Part shown: piece by piece, positions 55-14,452 of the stretch
Layout of the letters: each line of letters starts with the position of its first letter
How positions within the stretch are numbered: the stretch's first letter is position 1
Source of the DNA: Acidobacteriota bacterium
GTDB lineage: Bacteria > Acidobacteriota > Blastocatellia > RBC074
DNA length: 64,000 nt
Direction: 5' to 3'
Assembly (NCBI GenBank): GCA_016196035.1
Contig: JACPYM010000095.1
Span: 1-64,000, forward strand
Notes under the pieces: generated by a model
Databases searched by the model: none
Seen by the model: the letters and a program-made list of their open reading frames with translations, nothing else
Told to the model about the DNA's origin: nothing
Position numbers and translations under genes: made by a program

Positions 55-138
55 AAAGCTTGGCAACGGTTCCGCGTCGCGTCAGCGACGCCTGAATTCA
101 AGCGTCGCTGACGCGACGCGGAACCGTTGCCAAGCTTT
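55..138. repeat. Perfect 37-bp inverted repeat (hairpin)
   Basis: Left arm 55-91 and right arm 102-138 are exact reverse complements, separated by a 10-base spacer. Smaller palindromes flank it (CCCGGCGTTTCAACGCCGGG at about 35-54 and CCGTGGTTTTGAAAACCACGG-like bases just after the right arm). No gene is visible in 1-362. The sequence belongs to the general class of GC-rich intergenic hairpins seen throughout this window; a role in termination or as a dispersed repeat cannot be separated here. Confidence 0.85.
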
Positions 139-362
139 CTACCGTGGTTTGAAAACCACGGCTAAACTCAACTGTCGCTACGCGACAAAAACTGATGAGC
201 CTTGCATTTTTACCACTACCTACAGTTTTACTCACACCTCATTTGAAACTATTGAAGCTTGAGCGTCCGCCGCCAGCGCCGCGAGCCGCGGTTTTCCGCT
301 GATGATAAAAACAGCGGCCTTGCTTGCCGTGACCTGGCTGGATCCGCCGAAGGCATTACGTT

Positions 363-1190
<828 letters not shown>

Positions 1191-4365: not shown

Positions 4366-6774
<2,409 letters not shown>

Positions 6775-7795: not shown

Positions 7796-10700
7796 TTACT
7801 TGGCTTGGCCGTGGCTCGCGGCAGCTTGCAGCAATTGAGCAATCTCTGGCTTGCCCAACTGCTTGGCCAACTCCAACGCGGTCAGGCCGCTCTTGTCCTT
7901 CGCTTTGATATCGGCACCGTGCTGTAATAGCAGGCGGATGGTGGTGGGCCGATTGTAACGCACGGCGTACATCAGTGGCGTAGACCCATTGCTGTCAGCC
8001 GCATTGACATCGCAACCAGCCCGCAACAATGTTTCGCCAATCAACTGTAACGCCTTGTCAGGCAGTGCCTCTACTTCAAAGACCGACACCTCGCCATGCT
8101 CATCCTGTATTGCTTGGAACTTGCCACTCGAACCAGGCTTGGGTGGCGGCGGCGGGATTCTCTTGTTTCCCCGTTCGATCACGTCGCCACTGGGCCGACT
8201 TTCCATAGACATCACCATCAAAGCATTGCGTCCGTCGCTATCGCGCGTGTTCGGATCAGCGCCTTTTGCCAGTAGGATTTTGAGGGCGTTCTCGTTTCCC
8301 TGGATGAGCCTGGGAAAGCGGTGATTGGGCATTGGATAAAGCCATTGATAACGCGCCGCCGCCAGCAACGGCGGGCCAAAGCGGGTCGGTTCGTTGAGGT
8401 CTGCGCCGTGAGCCAGCAGCAGTTCGATAGCCTGCGGGCAGTAGGTGAGCGCCACGATCAAGGGGCTGCGTCCGATGGAATCGCGCGCCTGCACGTCAGC
8501 GCCGTGTGCGATCAGCAATTGCGCGATTTCTACGCGGCGATCCGTCAACGCCACATGCAAAGGCGGCATCGCGACAGCGCCGATGCCCGGTGGCGTCCAG
8601 CTTCCACTCAACACGAGCGGTGTATTCACGCCCACGCCCTTTTCGAGCAGGAATTCCGTCATCGCTCGTGATTGAATGATGCGCAGGTCGTAGGGATGGA
8701 AACTGCGCCCACCGAATGGCAGTACTGCGCGCCGCAGCCAGCGTTGCCAGCCTCTGGCTGGCGTACTTGGCAAGGCCCAAAAGGGAAGCGGGACGCCGGC
8801 GGCTTGCAAAGCTTTGACCGTATAGAGCCGGCCTGAGTTGATGGCCGTGCTCATCAGGGGAAGTTTCAAGAACTGCAAGTTGCCCAGCAGCAGCAGCAGC
8901 GCGCAGGTCGGCGCATAGGTCTTGAAATAAGGCCACCAACCGTTCGTTTTGGTTTCCATCGCCTGACGCAAGTGCGACACGGCTGTGTCTGTTGTGGTCT
9001 CACCCAAAGCTTTTCGCGCGGTGAAGTACAGCACAGCTTGTTCGATTGAGCTTTTCACGCTGAGGTTGAAGGCGGTAAAGCCGAGCGCCAGCAGCAACGG
9101 CAGCAGCAAAACGGCGTTGTCGAACAATTCCCTGCGCCCGCCATCCAGCGTGTTGCCCCAGAGCACCAACGCCGTCTGCCACGCGGTCAGCACGAGTGCG
9201 AAGGCCAGCAAGCGCCTGAACAAAGGATAGGCCAGCTTGCGGCGCAACGGCTCAATCAGTTTGGCTGAGCGTTGCGCGGCTTGGTCAACGCTCAGACCTT
9301 CCTGCATCAACGGCGGAACGCTCAGCAGGGAATCAGCCCAACGCTTAATCTCAGCCAGTTTGAACGAGCTCAGTTTGCGCGCGAGGCCCGCCAATTCGGC
9401 CCAGGTTGCTTGGGCCAGCGCGCCGCTGCGCTGCCGAATTGCGCTGACGATGTTGCGTGCGTCTAGCTCCGACTTGGCGGTTTTCTGCGTCTGTTCGAGG
9501 AAAAGCGTGAATGCTGCCGTGACTGAATTCTGTTTCCATAAAGTCGTAGCCGCGATCAACAGCCAGAGCAACCCGAAGACCAGGCCCGCTGACAAAGGCC
9601 GCAGCCCCGGCAATTTTACCGTCGCCAGCAGCAGCAAGCCGGTCAAGAGCCACATTCGCCATTGCAAGCGCACCGCCAGTTCCAGCAGTTTGAACCTGTG
9701 TTGCCGCAGCAGGGCATCGGCCTGCTGGCGCAACCAGTCATTGCCGGTGGTTTGCAGATTCAGCAGAAAAGCAAATGCGCCAGCCGTAGCGGGCCGCGCC
9801 GCCGGTTCTTTTGCCAGCGCCTGACCAACGACGGCATCGAGTGTGGCAGGCAGACCCCAACGTTTTTGGCTGAGCGGCACGGGCGTGGTTTCACGATGTT
9901 GTTGCAGCAGTTCCGCGAAGGTTCCGTCAAAGGGCAACTCGCCGCTCAGCATCTGGTACGCGATCACGCCCAGGCTGTAAATGTCCGAAGCGTTGTCTAG
10001 CTCTTCGCCCCGGCCCTGTTCGGGCGACATGTATTTCGGCGTGCCCAGCACGGTGCCCGCGCGCGTCAATTGCCGCAGCGTCAGATTCAGCCGCAGCGTT
10101 TCGTCTTCTGTGATGGAATAGGGCTGAAGTTGCGGCGCGGCTGGCTGGCTCGTTTCGCTGACGACCGGCAGTGGCTCCGGCTCTTCGAGCACCAGCAAGT
10201 CTTGCAACTGGGCGATGCCGAAATCGAGCACCTTGACGTTGCAACCGGCAACTCCGACCGGTTCGAGCCAGATGTTTTCCGGTTTGAGATCGCGATGCAG
10301 AATGCCCAGCCGATGCGCTTCGTCAATCGCCGCGCAGGTCTGGCTGAGAATGTCGAGCGCGTCAGCCAATGGCAGCGGGCGTTTGTCTTTGAGCTTGGCC
10401 GCCAGCGTACCGCCTTCGAGATGTTCCATCACCAGATAGGCCAGCGTTTGCTCGTGCTCGCCCGTGATGCCGAAGTCGGTCACGTTGACGATATTCGGAT
10501 GGCGCAAACGCCCGATGGTCTTGGCCTCGCGCCGGAACCGTTCGATGAATTCGCGCTGGCCCGCCAGTTCGGGCGCGATCACTTTGACGGCCACGCGGCG
10601 GCCCGTGCCGACGTGCAGCGCGCGATAGACCGCGCCCATGCCGCCGCGTCCGCACAATTCCTCCAAACGGTATTTCCCATCGAGCAAGCGTCCGATCATC

Positions 10701-10957
10701 TGCTGACCAGAGGGCGGCGTCAGCGCCTCTGCGAGTTGCGCTTGCCAGCGGCCAAATTGGGACGCAAGGCTGATGCGCAGGGCGGGCGTTTCCAGGAAGC
10801 TGTGATTTTCCTCGTGGTTGTTGAGCAGGGATTGAAGTTCGTGTCGCAAGGCCGGATCGTGTTGTGCGACCTGCGCCAGAAACGCCGCGCGTTCTTCGGT
10901 TGGACATTCCAGCGCCTGGTGAAAAAGCTGATCAATCTTTTCCCAATCTGTGTTCAT
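7796..10957 (-). CDS. Membrane Ser/Thr protein kinase with C-terminal ankyrin repeats
   Basis: A 1053-residue protein. An N-terminal helical segment (about 1-90) is followed by a Hanks-type kinase domain: glycine loop GRGGMGAVY (103-111), Lys125, HRDLKPEN (221-228), DFG (245-247) and the SPE segment (about 311-313). The stretch from DFG to SPE is about 65 residues, longer than usual, with an acidic/proline-rich insert. Several hydrophobic segments occupy roughly residues 430-720. The C-terminal 270 residues carry about five ankyrin repeats (for example PLHVALTDRRVEIAQLLIAH and GSTPLMYAVRYNRP). Catalytic residues look intact. It is divergent from the ECF-type sigma factor at 11232, an arrangement known for kinase-controlled sigma factors, so it probably signals to that factor. 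Confidence 0.93.
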   Translation of the reverse strand: MNTDWEKIDQLFHQALECPTEERAAFLAQVAQHDPALRHELQSLLNNHEENHSFLETPALRISLASQFGRWQAQLAEALTPPSGQQMIGRLLDGKYRLEELCGRGGMGAVYRALHVGTGRRVAVKVIAPELAGQREFIERFRREAKTIGRLRHPNIVNVTDFGITGEHEQTLAYLVMEHLEGGTLAAKLKDKRPLPLADALDILSQTCAAIDEAHRLGILHRDLKPENIWLEPVGVAGCNVKVLDFGIAQLQDLLVLEEPEPLPVVSETSQPAAPQLQPYSITEDETLRLNLTLRQLTRAGTVLGTPKYMSPEQGRGEELDNASDIYSLGVIAYQMLSGELPFDGTFAELLQQHRETTPVPLSQKRWGLPATLDAVVGQALAKEPAARPATAGAFAFLLNLQTTGNDWLRQQADALLRQHRFKLLELAVRLQWRMWLLTGLLLLATVKLPGLRPLSAGLVFGLLWLLIAATTLWKQNSVTAAFTLFLEQTQKTAKSELDARNIVSAIRQRSGALAQATWAELAGLARKLSSFKLAEIKRWADSLLSVPPLMQEGLSVDQAAQRSAKLIEPLRRKLAYPLFRRLLAFALVLTAWQTALVLWGNTLDGGRRELFDNAVLLLPLLLALGFTAFNLSVKSSIEQAVLYFTARKALGETTTDTAVSHLRQAMETKTNGWWPYFKTYAPTCALLLLLGNLQFLKLPLMSTAINSGRLYTVKALQAAGVPLPFWALPSTPARGWQRWLRRAVLPFGGRSFHPYDLRIIQSRAMTEFLLEKGVGVNTPLVLSGSWTPPGIGAVAMPPLHVALTDRRVEIAQLLIAHGADVQARDSIGRSPLIVALTYCPQAIELLLAHGADLNEPTRFGPPLLAAARYQWLYPMPNHRFPRLIQGNENALKILLAKGADPNTRDSDGRNALMVMSMESRPSGDVIERGNKRIPPPPPKPGSSGKFQAIQDEHGEVSVFEVEALPDKALQLIGETLLRAGCDVNAADSNGSTPLMYAVRYNRPTTIRLLLQHGADIKAKDKSGLTALELAKQLGKPEIAQLLQAAASHGQAK

Positions 10958-11085
10958 CGCTCGGCTCCATTGTCCTGCTGTGTCGGTGATTGTTTAATAT
11001 GCTGACGGTGCAAGCAATCGTCCGTCACCGCAAATAGCGACAAAGCGGTGCGAATCCGCCCAGGCTGAACGAAAAAAAGAAAATC

Positions 11086-11208
11086 CCTGGGTACGCAGCG
11101 CTTCCAGCGTGCAGTCTCGGCGTGAGACCGAGCAATGCCGAAGGGTACCCTTTCAGCATCATTCTATCTTCTGCCAAGACCGCACGCTGGAAGCGGTGCG
11201 TACCCAGG
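11086..11208. repeat. Inverted repeat in the kinase/sigma divergent promoter region
   Basis: Arms 11086-11112 and 11182-11208 (27 bp, one mismatch) frame a 69-base spacer. The element fills much of the 274-base divergent gap and ends 23 bases before the sigma-factor ATG, so the right arm would lie in the 5' untranslated leader or overlap the promoter. It may be just another dispersed repeat of the kind common in this window, or may affect expression of the sigma gene. Confidence 0.75.
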
Positions 11209-11231
11209 AATTTCTCTCGAAGGAAAACGCA

Positions 11232-11810
11232 ATGTCTACGAACTCATCCGAAATCAGCCTGTTACTTGATCAATATCGCGCCGGGCAGGCCGAAGCGTTT
11301 GGTAAATTGATGGCGCTGGTCTATGACGACCTGCGCCGCCTAGCCGCCTGGCAGCTTCAGACCGAACGCCCGGAGCACACCTTGCAACCCACCGCGCTGG
11401 TGCACGAAGCCTATCTGAAACTGGCCGGACAGAATCCGGTCGAATGGCAAAACAAGGCGCACTTCTTCGCCCTGGCGGCCCAGGTCATGCGCCACATTCT
11501 GGTGGATCACGCGCGCACCAAACAGCGCGACAAACGCGGCGGCGGACAAGCCAGCGTCGCACTTGATGAAGCGCTCAAGCTGAGCAACGCCAGCGAACCG
11601 GGCCTGGTCGAATTGGATGAAGCGCTCGACACCCTGGCCGGGCAGGACGCGCGCAAGGGCCGCATCGTCGAGTTGCGCTATTTCGGCGGACTGAGCATCG
11701 AAGAGACTGCCGACGTGCTGGGCATCTCGCCCACTTCCGTGCGCCGTGAATGGACGCTGGCAAAAGCCTGGCTGCGGCGCGAACTGGGCAAAGACGTCCG
11801 CGCTAATTGA
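11232..11810 (+). CDS. ECF-like RNA polymerase sigma factor (kinase-linked type)
   Basis: A 192-residue sigma-70-family protein with region 2 at about residues 8-97 and a region 4 helix-turn-helix at about 145-185 (IEETADVLGISPTSVRREW). The region 2.2 sequence reads LQPTALVHEAYLKL, without the acidic DAED-type motif that normally contacts RNA polymerase. This matches the acidobacterial/planctomycete subfamily (TIGR02999-like), in which kinase phosphorylation has been proposed, and shown in a related ECF43 factor, to supply the missing charge. The ATG at 11232 follows a GAAGGAAA-type site and gives the normal short N-terminus; an upstream in-frame start at 11109 lies inside an inverted repeat. 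No anti-sigma gene is adjacent. Confidence 0.9.
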   Translation: MSTNSSEISLLLDQYRAGQAEAFGKLMALVYDDLRRLAAWQLQTERPEHTLQPTALVHEAYLKLAGQNPVEWQNKAHFFALAAQVMRHILVDHARTKQRDKRGGGQASVALDEALKLSNASEPGLVELDEALDTLAGQDARKGRIVELRYFGGLSIEETADVLGISPTSVRREWTLAKAWLRRELGKDVRAN

Positions 11811-11963: not shown

Positions 11964-11996
11964 CTGACGATTCACTGACGATTCACTGACGATTGT
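11964..11996 (+). repeat. Three tandem copies of an 11-bp unit
   Basis: The unit CTGACGATTCA occurs at 11964-11974 and 11975-11985, with a degenerate third copy at 11986-11996. It lies between the sigma factor and ADOP copy 3, about 40 bases before the permease start. It could be a small direct-repeat operator or a simple slippage repeat; sequence alone does not decide. Confidence 0.7.
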
Positions 11997-12034
11997 TGAC
12001 CAGTTATTCAACGCAGATTCAGGGAGCACCACTG

Positions 12035-14452
12035 ATGAACACCTTCTGGCAAGACCTGCGCTACGGCGCGCGAATGTTGATGAAACAGCCCGGCTTCACG
12101 TTGATCGCCGTTGTTACGCTGGCGCTGGGCATCGGCGCGAATACGGCGATTTTCAGTGTGGTCAATGCGGCGCTGCTGCGCCCGTTGCCATACGTCCACG
12201 CCGAACAACTGGTCGCGGTCTTTGTGCGCACGAACAGCGACCCGCGCGAATATGTCGCGTGGCCTGATTTGCTGGACTGGCGCGCGCAGAACCGGTCGTT
12301 TGCCCAACTGGCGGCTTTCGTGCCGCAGAGCGTCAACCTGACCGGGCGCACCGGCAGCCAGATCGAACCGGGCCGGGTCATCGGTGGTTTTGTGAGCGCC
12401 GATTTTTTTCCCATGCTTCAGGTCACTGCCGCACAGGGGCGCGCCTTTTTGCCCGGCGAAGATGTGACGGGCGCTGAGCGCGTCGCTGTTGTCAGCTATG
12501 AAACCTGGCGCGACCGGTTTGGCGCTGATCCGCAACTGCTCGGCCAGACGCTGACGCTCAACAATCAACCGTTCACGGTCGTGGGCGTCCTGCCAGCGGG
12601 CTTCCGCGCGCCTTATTCCGAAATTGAGGTGTGGCTGCCGATTCAGCATTACCCGAATTTTTCGCTCGACCGCAAGGTCACGAGCGCGGGCGTGTTCGGA
12701 CGGCTCAAGCCGGGCGTATCCATGCGGCAGGCGCAAACCGAGATGGATACGATTGCCGCCCGCCTGGCCCAGCAATATCCCGAAACCAACAAAGAGCGCG
12801 GCGTCAATCTGGTTGGTTTGCAAACGCTGCTGGCCGAGCAATTGAAACCCGCGTTGCTGGTATTGTTCGGCGCGGTGGGCTGCGTGCTGTTGATCGCCTG
12901 CGCCAATATCGCCAACCTGTTGTTGAGCCGCGCGGTCGGGCGTGCGCGTGAACTGGCCTTGTGCGCCGCCTTGGGCGCCAGCCGCGCGCGCCTGTTGCGG
13001 CAACTGCTGACCGAAAGCCTGTTGCTGGCGCTGGTGAGCGGAGTCATCGGGCTGCTGATCGGCGTCTGGGGGATGGAGGCCCTGGCAACCAGCAGCGCCG
13101 TCAATTTGCCGGGGCTGTTTGAAATCAAACTCGATCGCGCGGTGTTCGGGTTCACGCTGGGCGCGGCGCTGTTGACCGGTTTGGTTTTCGGCTTGTTGCC
13201 GGCCTGGCGTTTCTCGCGGCCTGACCTGAACGAAGCCTTGAAAGAGGGCGGGCGGACGGCGGGCGCGCAACCTTCGCGCAACCGCTTGCGCGGATTGCTG
13301 GTCGTCGCTCAGGTCGCGCTCTCGCTGGTATTGCTGGTGGGCGCGGGGTTGATGGTCAGAAGTTTTGCGAACCTGCTCGGCGTTGATCCGGGCTTCGATG
13401 CGCACAATGTGCTGACGCTGGAATACCGCGTGCCGCGCAACAAATATCCCGAACCGCAGCAGCAATGGCGCTTTCACGAACAGGTGGTCGCGCGCGTGCA
13501 AGCCCTGCCCGGCGTTGAATCTGCCGCCGCCGTGGGCGCGATTCCGCACGGCGGAAATTCCGGCACCTCCGGGTTTACTCTGCCTGAGCGCGCGACACCG
13601 CCCGCCGGTCAGGAACCGCGCGCGCAAACCAATCGCGCCGATCCGCACTATTTCCGCACCCTGAAAATTCCGGTCTTGCAGGGCCGCGTTTTCACCGCGC
13701 AAGATCAAGCGCAAACGCCGCCTGTGATCATCATCAACCAAACGATGGCGCGGCAATACTGGCCGGCGGGCGAGGCCCTCGGGCGGCAGGTGCATCTGTT
13801 GTCCCCGGACGTCACGGCCACGGTTATCGGCGTCGTCGGCGACATCCGGCATCTCAGCTTGGACGAACCCGCGCAGCCGCAAATCTATCTGAACTACGCG
13901 CAGCAGCCGCACATCTTTGCCTCGCTGGTGGTGCGCACGCGCGGCGATGCCAACAGCTTTGCCAACGCGGTGCGCGCCGCTATCTGGTCGGTGGACAGCG
14001 AACAGCCCGTTTGGAAAGTGCGCACGCTCGAATTCCTGCTGCAACGCTCGTTAGGTGGGCAGCGATTTCTGCTGCAATTAATCGGCGCGCTCGCCGGCCT
14101 GGCGCTGCTGCTGGCGGCGGTCGGCATTTATGGCGTCATCGCCTATGCGGTCAGCCAGCGCACGCATGAGATTGGCATTCGCATGGCGCTGGGCGCACAG
14201 CGGCGCGACGTGTTGCGGCTGGTGCTGGGGCAGGGCCTGAAGCTCGTCTTGCTCGGCGTCGCACTCGGCATGGCGGCGGCGTTCGCGCTGACGCGGCTGA
14301 TGAACACCCTGTTGTTTGGTGTCGGCGCTACCGATCCGTTGACCTTTGGCGTCGTGGCGCTGCTGTTGTTGCTGGTTGCGCTAGCGGCCTGTTGGTTTCC
14401 CGCGCGCCGTGCGCTGGGCGTTGAGCCGCTGATGGCGTTGCGCGGTGATTGA
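12035..14452 (+). CDS. ADOP-family FtsX/MacB-like permease (copy 3)
   Basis: An 805-residue ADOP permease with the standard layout: [18 protein letters not shown] at the N-terminus, a helix at about 20-42, MacB-like periplasmic core, FtsX block near 265-385, middle helix ([19 protein letters not shown]), second periplasmic part, and a terminal FtsX block. The ATG at 12035 is chosen over one 42 bases upstream because AGGGA lies nine bases before it and the product starts like its paralogues. It follows the sigma gene on the same strand after 224 bases that contain small tandem repeats but no gene. In acidobacterial genomes such permeases often sit beside kinase/sigma modules; whether this sigma controls it is a guess. 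Confidence 0.93.

Follow-up and report, generated by a model that had tools for sequence, protein, structure and literature searches.

The kinase–sigma pair analysed here, a membrane-bound Ser/Thr kinase with an ankyrin-repeat tail and an ECF sigma factor, is best read as a sigma system switched on by phosphorylation in the manner of EcfP/EcfK, with a small helical module at the N-terminus of the kinase proposed as the sigma recruiter. By analogy with the characterized systems, the sigma factor most likely needs phosphorylation for its function. The two genes lie in a window of 64,000 nucleotides (the whole stretch of DNA that was analysed) from an Acidobacteriota bacterium, and both open reading frames described in a first-pass annotation of the sequence were recovered at the same positions (Table 1). 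The host is a soil-type bacterium whose genome encodes nearly a hundred kinases and some 48 PF07638 sigma factors, and the pair studied is one among dozens of such pairs.

Table 1. Positions of the kinase and sigma genes and of their parts within the window
Feature	Position	Strand	Basis
Ser/Thr kinase gene, 1053 aa	7796..10957	-	ORF, Pfam, AlphaFold model m35cf23d74672
N-terminal helical module, aa 4-62	10772..10948	-	profile A2, three confident model helices, PknS match
Protein kinase domain, aa about 86-400	9758..10702	-	Pfam, invariant columns, Foldseek to PknB
Disordered part of the enlarged activation segment, aa 248-301	10055..10216	-	length survey, pLDDT <50
Polytopic membrane region, aa about 421-694, about five TM helices	8876..9697	-	hydropathy, loop charge, model helices
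Ankyrin-repeat tail, aa about 700-1049, predicted periplasmic	7811..8860	-	Pfam, topology prediction
ECF sigma factor gene, PF07638/TIGR02999, 192 aa from ATG	11232..11810	+	ORF, Pfam/NCBIfam, start inspection
QPTA motif, region 2.2; Thr54 codon 11391-11393	11385..11396	+	alignments, literature on EcfP/EcfK

The kinase consists, in order, of the N-terminal module, the kinase domain, the polytopic membrane region and the ankyrin tail. The kinase domain matches PF00069 (E 2.2e-42, 145.7 bits against a cutoff of 31.7), its fold is supported by a Foldseek match to PknB (E 7.1e-19), and the catalytic residues, read from invariant columns of the alignment, are intact (G103-G108, K125, H221-R222-D223, D245-F246-G247 and P312-E313). 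The first-pass description of a membrane kinase that ends in ankyrin repeats and has an enlarged activation segment was accurate: hydropathy, loop charge and model helices indicate about five transmembrane helices, the tail matches PF12796 (E 4.2e-27, 95.0 bits against a cutoff of 27.3; the ankyrin families tested were PF12796 and PF00023), and the activation segment comprises 61 residues, while those of the other kinases of the genome mostly have 19-50 (median about 33). Residues 248-301 are predicted to be disordered in the AlphaFold model (pLDDT under 50). The tail and the long segment, which had prompted the suggestion of a new input, are however not special to this kinase. Among 162 genomes of the class, 112 carry a long-loop, multi-TM kinase core, frequently with an ankyrin tail and mostly without a sigma factor, so that both features carry little information on sigma control, and the notion of the ankyrin tail as a unique sensor was rejected. 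These long-loop polytopic ankyrin kinases (L129-L139 and L141) share the subfamily, the long insert, the polytopic region and often the ankyrin tail with the window kinase, but differ from it in that the N-terminal module and an adjoining sigma gene are mostly absent.

The start of the sigma gene is more likely ATG 11232, which is preceded by an AAGGA Shine-Dalgarno-like run, than the listed GTG 11109. The product matches Sigma70_ECF, PF07638, as a whole-domain member of the family (E 2.2e-57, 194.4 bits against a cutoff of 21.1) and TIGR02999 (Sig-70_X6; 213.9 bits against 126.15). Its region 2.2 reads LQPTALVHEAYLKL, with QPTA in place of the acidic motif and neither D nor E at any of the four DAED-equivalent positions, in agreement with the first-pass annotation, and Thr54 aligns with the phospho-Thr position of EcfP and EcfK (ECF43). 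The DAED-less state was considered as an unusual trait and rejected as such, being the rule in the PF07638 family; QPTA/QTTA-like motifs are found in nearly all 48 strong PF07638 sigma factors of the host genome. With DAED absent, Thr at the phospho-position (QPTA against the ECF43 consensus QTTA) and a Hanks-type kinase gene adjoining the sigma gene, the window sigma factor resembles ECF43 by motif and gene context.

Lack of conservation of the pairing, named in the first-pass annotation as a ground for refutation, was not borne out, the linkage being conserved. A kinase gene lies within 2.5 kb of 37 of the 48 strong PF07638 sigma factors of the host genome (11 have none within that distance) and of the sigma gene at 68 of 80 sampled loci of other genomes. 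The 80-locus set was selected in part by a pattern containing [TS]AL, and the Ser/Thr count of 80/81 is therefore not independent and was set aside. Strong co-divergence of sigma factors and kinases within the genome was rejected, as the correlation is weak (rho 0.21). Of the earlier interpretation, the EcfP/EcfK-type motif with its Thr and the conserved linkage thus stand, while DAED loss, ankyrin tail and long loop are not special to this pair.

The DAED-less motif, the ankyrin tail, the long activation segment and the membrane-bound kinase are each common to many paralogues or relatives. The trait that tracks sigma partnership, overlooked in the first-pass annotation, is the N-terminal helical module, ~60 aa folded into three confident helices in the AlphaFold model. 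Profile A2, of which the window sequence is itself a row, matches the module at E 6.2e-24. In the host genome, the module is present in 36 of 37 sigma-linked kinases and in 9 of 60 unlinked ones (p 5.5e-17). Across seven genomes reached through other phyla, a PF07638 sigma gene lies beside 43 of 52 module-bearing and 2 of 98 module-less kinases (p 4e-26), and module counts follow sigma counts per genome (rho 0.956, 151 genomes). The module is scattered across the kinase tree rather than restricted to one clade, and the module–sigma test on supported tree contrasts gave a median p of 0.06. The module seems to mark kinases as sigma-factor partners. No named Pfam domain reached significance for it, and searches for a known fold (Foldseek best E 0.52, VIA-align best Z 4.8) were uninformative, as for a small helical bundle. 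A module profile built from the class matches PknS ahead of its kinase domain (PDB 9EED, 9eed_A residues 8-62, E 1.5e-7); the remaining three hits are designed TPR proteins.

Association alone cannot separate docking from some other shared need, and the module could serve autoinhibition, dimerisation or stability and accompany this type of operon while the kinase still activates the sigma factor. A flexible linker joins the module to the kinase, the module is invisible in the PknS crystal, and some kinases with the module lack a sigma gene nearby (9 of 52 without one within 2.5 kb in the seven genomes of other lineages, besides the nine of the host genome), all in keeping with such a role. We nevertheless consider it rather unlikely: kinases of the same subfamily do without the module when no sigma factor is linked, which argues against a general need of the kinase, and module numbers rise and fall with sigma numbers genome by genome. 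Taken further, sigma docking would make the module a portable recognition unit, acquisition of which would couple any Hanks-kinase lineage to a DAED-less ECF sigma factor, and pairing with a phospho-activated sigma factor would be defined by one small domain in at least Acidobacteriota, Planctomycetota, Verrucomicrobiota, Gemmatimonadota, Rhodothermia, KSB1 and Gammaproteobacteria; for this wider claim the balance is about even.

The anatomy of the kinase, its intact catalytic residues, the conserved Thr, the conserved linkage and the module–sigma association within and across phyla are the observed base for a model of the pathway, which as a whole (the kinase switching on its partner through module recruitment and Thr54 phosphorylation) we hold to be somewhat probable. 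Counting against it are the weak co-divergence of sigma factors and kinases, the module-bearing kinases that lack a nearby sigma gene, the 11 sigma genes with no kinase close by and the median p of 0.06 on tree contrasts. As for EcfP, a sigma factor whose region 2.2 lacks the acidic DAED patch would bind core RNA polymerase poorly. An envelope signal on the polytopic region and the predicted periplasmic ankyrin tail would activate the kinase, and the N-terminal module would bring in the PF07638-class sigma factor, a new step suggested by its association with linked sigma genes. The kinase would then, in analogy with EcfP/PknT and EcfK/PknS, phosphorylate Thr54 in QPTA, possibly along with further Ser/Thr residues; EcfK T51A remains functional in X. 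citri, and the Thr site may thus not be the sole one. With negative charge restored, the holoenzyme would form and the regulon would be transcribed.

The layout of the locus bears on whether the sigma factor is the target at all. The two genes are divergently transcribed rather than arranged as an operon. The interval between them holds a dispersed palindromic element, and simple consensus searches there found neither a sigma70-type promoter nor a terminator. The kinase might act on other envelope proteins, leaving the sigma factor to its own expression or another regulator; the divergent arrangement and the palindromic element fit this, and most members of the long-loop ankyrin-tailed subfamily lack a linked sigma gene, from which it can be argued that the kinase chassis has other targets. 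Divergent pairs also occur elsewhere, however (7 of the 80 sampled loci; L090 is likewise divergent), the window kinase carries the very module associated with linked sigma genes, and its neighbour has a phospho-dependent motif, which makes an unrelated target distinctly improbable. Control of the neighbouring sigma factor remains the favoured reading.

The sequences of the window kinase and its closest relatives are compatible with five TM helices and a cytoplasmic position of the two K/R-rich loops (109 and 49 aa), which places the tail outside, as predicted above. Ankyrin repeats are frequently cytoplasmic, and six hydrophobic stretches in some ankyrin-tailed relatives would place the tail inside, where it would serve to bind other proteins and not to sense the envelope. 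This alternative is doubtful given the five-helix fit, and the TPRs of PknS are periplasmic, as are most TPR/WD40 tails of planctomycete STKs (PMC11032199); a periplasmic tail is thus retained in the model. GPDPase_memb (PF10110) was rejected as a family assignment for the membrane region: this part of the window kinase gave no match at E up to 1 and only 2 of 11 relatives matched (best E 5.3e-6), with L092 under the curated cutoff.

In two ECF43 systems, EcfP/PknT and EcfK/PknS, phosphorylation has been shown to activate the sigma factor, and the accounts of these systems propose no answer to how the kinase finds its sigma factor. If the module tracks partnership, it would explain target choice in a genome with so many kinases and sigma factors, allow partners to be predicted where the genes are non-adjacent, and provide a component with which kinases could be rewired to transcription. 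The window pair would add a different kinase chassis (polytopic, with a long activation loop and an ankyrin tail) coupled to sigma output. By published description, EcfP of Vibrio parahaemolyticus is likewise a DAED-less sigma factor (STTA, with the second Thr phosphorylated, against QPTA) with an adjacent kinase gene, PknT; there, phosphorylation and the polymyxin response have been demonstrated, whereas the window pair is known from its genes. The ECF groups 59, 61, 62, 217 and 283 resemble the window pair in having ECF genes beside Ser/Thr kinase genes, and phospho-activation is predicted for them (Table in PMC8999054). A close parallel is EcfK/PknS of Xanthomonas citri (ECF43), in which PknS phosphorylates EcfK directly: in both kinase–sigma gene pairs the sigma factor has Thr at the phospho-position of region 2.2, and both kinases are membrane proteins that share the N-terminal helical module and end in a repeat-type tail. 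PknS differs from the window kinase in having a single TM helix instead of about five and periplasmic TPRs instead of ankyrin repeats, its activation segment is much shorter, and the EcfK motif QATE retains one acidic residue where QPTA has none.

The pair lies in a genome of 9.6 Mb in 139 contigs (the window is contig C95). Judging by named relatives of the sigma factor, the genome probably belongs to the class Blastocatellia of the Acidobacteriota. The likeliest start codon of the sigma factor is the ATG at 11232, in preference to a GTG at 11109, since an AAGGA run stands ahead of the former. Between the two genes is a near-perfect palindrome that ends 19 bp ahead of this ATG and may affect the promoter region common to both; similar copies dispersed over the genome (at least about 40, the best ~40 of 209 candidates) suggest an element of the MITE/REP type. 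The pair has a permease gene on either side, and the one downstream of the sigma factor on the same strand could be among its targets.

Features of the kinase–sigma factor locus (nucleotide positions in the window; aa, residues of the kinase)
Feature	Position	Strand	Remarks
Permease gene	4366-6774		MacB_PCD/FtsX-type (Pfam)
Kinase gene	7796-10957	-	ORF, 1053 aa; Pfam Pkinase + ankyrin
N-terminal helical module	aa 4-62
Kinase domain	aa about 86-400		intact glycine loop, K125, HRD, DFG and SPEQ motifs
Activation-segment insert	aa 248-301		predicted disordered
Polytopic membrane region	aa 421-694
Ankyrin tail	C-terminal to membrane region
Palindrome	11081-11213		65-nt arms, 78% complementary; 3-nt loop
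ECF sigma factor gene	start ATG 11232	+	divergent to kinase; PF07638 (Pfam) / TIGR02999 (NCBIfam)
Permease gene	11993-14452	+	MacB_PCD/FtsX-type (Pfam)

As the first-pass annotation had claimed, the sigma factor lacks the acidic region 2.2 motif: the region reads LQPTALVHEAYLKL, with Q-P-T-A at the four positions of D-A-E-D in canonical ECF sigma factors. Neither this motif nor the linkage to a kinase is exceptional. The genome encodes 48 strong PF07638 sigma factors, only 4 of which have an acidic residue at the motif, and almost all aligned sequences (these 48 and a few from relatives) have QPTA, QTTA, QTSA, QATA or similar. The earlier reading had been staked on conservation of the pairing, and the pairing is conserved, since a kinase lies within 2.5 kb of the sigma factor in 37 of the 48 cases and in 68 of 80 loci from other genomes. 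The linked kinases of this genome are nearly all co-directional and downstream, the window pair being one of two divergent pairs among the 37; elsewhere, 7 of the 68 pairs are divergent. Kinase-linked, DAED-less ECF sigma factors have been described before, and phospho-activation is predicted for several groups (PMC8999054).

The kinase domain gives a structural match to PknB, and its activation segment spans 61 residues versus mostly 19-50 (median about 33) in kinases of the same genome. Loops of the membrane region hold 18 K/R residues (109-residue loop) and 6 (49-residue loop); these charges and the helices of the model favor a predicted topology of five transmembrane helices with a periplasmic ankyrin tail, a topology that is ambiguous in some relatives. 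The ankyrin tail and enlarged activation segment had been taken as signs of a possibly new input. Both are present, but they are common in a subfamily of kinases with a long activation segment and a polytopic membrane region, the majority of which have no nearby sigma factor, and are thus traits of the subfamily and not of sigma control. Across the class, Blastocatellia, a profile of the membrane region has matches in 112 of the 162 genomes; within the window's own family it matches only the window genome. Fetched subfamily members combine the polytopic region with activation segments of mostly 68 to over 200 residues (shorter at locus L094). Ankyrin tails are found at L093, L094, L129-L134, L136-L139 and L141, and sigma-linked cousins occur among these (L093, with the sigma factor 73 bp away; L137, 59 bp). 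The closest pair overall, L090 (G017:C4, 4442-8598), is also divergent, with 56% identity in the sigma factor and 57% in the kinase domain; its C-terminal domain, 'SENAWxxY...GYRLENGxPVxWxAGxDGxDxGG', is a second exchangeable tail without a Pfam name, shared with L086, L087, L097, L135 and L140. Other members have no tail. The kinase-domain tree of the subfamily, in which the window kinase sits on a long branch of uncertain placement, implies at least seven changes of tail type and at least six of the N-terminal module.

This module, of ~60 residues and without a match among Pfam families, follows sigma partnership (sigma factor within 2.5 kb of the kinase throughout). In the window genome it is carried by 36 of 37 sigma-linked kinases versus 9 of 60 others (Fisher p 5.5e-17), and for 6 of those 9 a sigma factor is found no more than 8 kb away. 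One of the 36 is interrupted by an in-frame TAG, and in the single exception the module is encoded just upstream, in its own 107-aa frame; these two genes (L060 and L058; G000:C2:42969-44150 and G000:C65:40008-41037) may be pseudogenes or assembly errors. Within the long-loop subfamily, sigma linkage is seen for 10/14 module-bearing and 1/22 module-less kinases under a strict call for L093 (p 4e-5), or 11/15 and 0/21 under a lenient one (p 2e-6). A profile built solely from members of the window's class was also applied to seven genomes, each picked for holding such a sigma factor and reached via loci of Planctomycetota, Verrucomicrobiota, Gemmatimonadota, Rhodothermia, KSB1 and a gammaproteobacterial symbiont; among the 150 kinases listed, 43/52 module-bearing versus 2/98 module-less kinases were sigma-linked (p 4e-26). 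Across the class, modules per genome track PF07638 sigma factors per genome (Spearman 0.956 over the 151 genomes with uncapped counts, uncorrected for kinship or genome size), and where such a sigma factor is absent (16 genomes), 11 genomes lack the module and 5 have one. At L291, a locus of the gammaproteobacterial symbiont of Ctena orbiculata, the module is missing from the kinase immediately downstream of the sigma factor and present on a second kinase upstream of it, a natural experiment on which of the two controls the sigma factor.

As to whether the association reflects shared ancestry alone, the module occurs at dispersed places in the kinase tree of the genome and class and changes state at least 23 times among 133 kinases, although many branches are weakly supported. 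In supported independent contrasts, sigma linkage moves with the module in 6.2 of 9 and opposite to it in 0.4 (median p 0.06). Sigma and kinase distances correlate weakly within the genome (rho 0.21; 21/1000 permutations as high) and in other pairs (rho 0.26; 0/1000), where species history also contributes. These results support a module shuffled in step with sigma partnership, with docking as a candidate role that they do not prove.

For the module of the window kinase, AlphaFold predicts three confident helices, with pLDDT above 90 at roughly residues 11-50, and fold searches with this model gave no informative match. Against the PDB, the only natural protein matched by the module profile was the X. 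citri kinase PknS (9eed residues 8-62, E 1.5e-7), for which direct phosphorylation of a sigma factor has been demonstrated (PMC13147305). Its authors remark on 83 extra residues at the N terminus, a segment without an assigned role that is conserved in Xanthomonadaceae; it was predicted to form three or four helices and is not visible in the crystal structure. Beyond this one note on PknS, the link between module and partnership is undescribed in the literature we found, which takes in neither most subscription papers nor the principal classification of ECF sigma factors or the publication on EcfP; a prior description is possible.

The proposed analogy to ECF43-type, kinase-activated sigma factors is sound, because Thr54 aligns with the phospho-Thr position of EcfP and EcfK. 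V. parahaemolyticus EcfP has STTA there, the second Thr being phosphorylated by PknT (PMC8999054); the ECF43 consensus is QTTA, and PknS phosphorylates EcfK at that site (PMC13147305). The EcfK T51A variant is still functional in X. citri (PMC13147305), and the exact acceptor site may therefore differ. In the most likely scheme, a signal from the envelope, sensed through the polytopic region and the ankyrin tail, would activate the kinase, the module would present the sigma factor to it, and Thr54, perhaps together with sites in the linker as for EcfK, would be phosphorylated, allowing RNA polymerase binding. Our own data contribute the anatomy, the linkage and the module association to this scheme; a sigma factor inactive without phosphate, with its charge restored by phosphorylation, would be the counterpart of EcfP and EcfK, from which both ideas are borrowed. 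The window sigma factor resembles EcfP in lacking DAED, with QPTA in place of STTA, and its kinase shares the N-terminal module with PknS; new in the window pair is the joining of a polytopic, ankyrin-tailed kinase with a long, predictedly disordered activation segment to a DAED-less ECF output.
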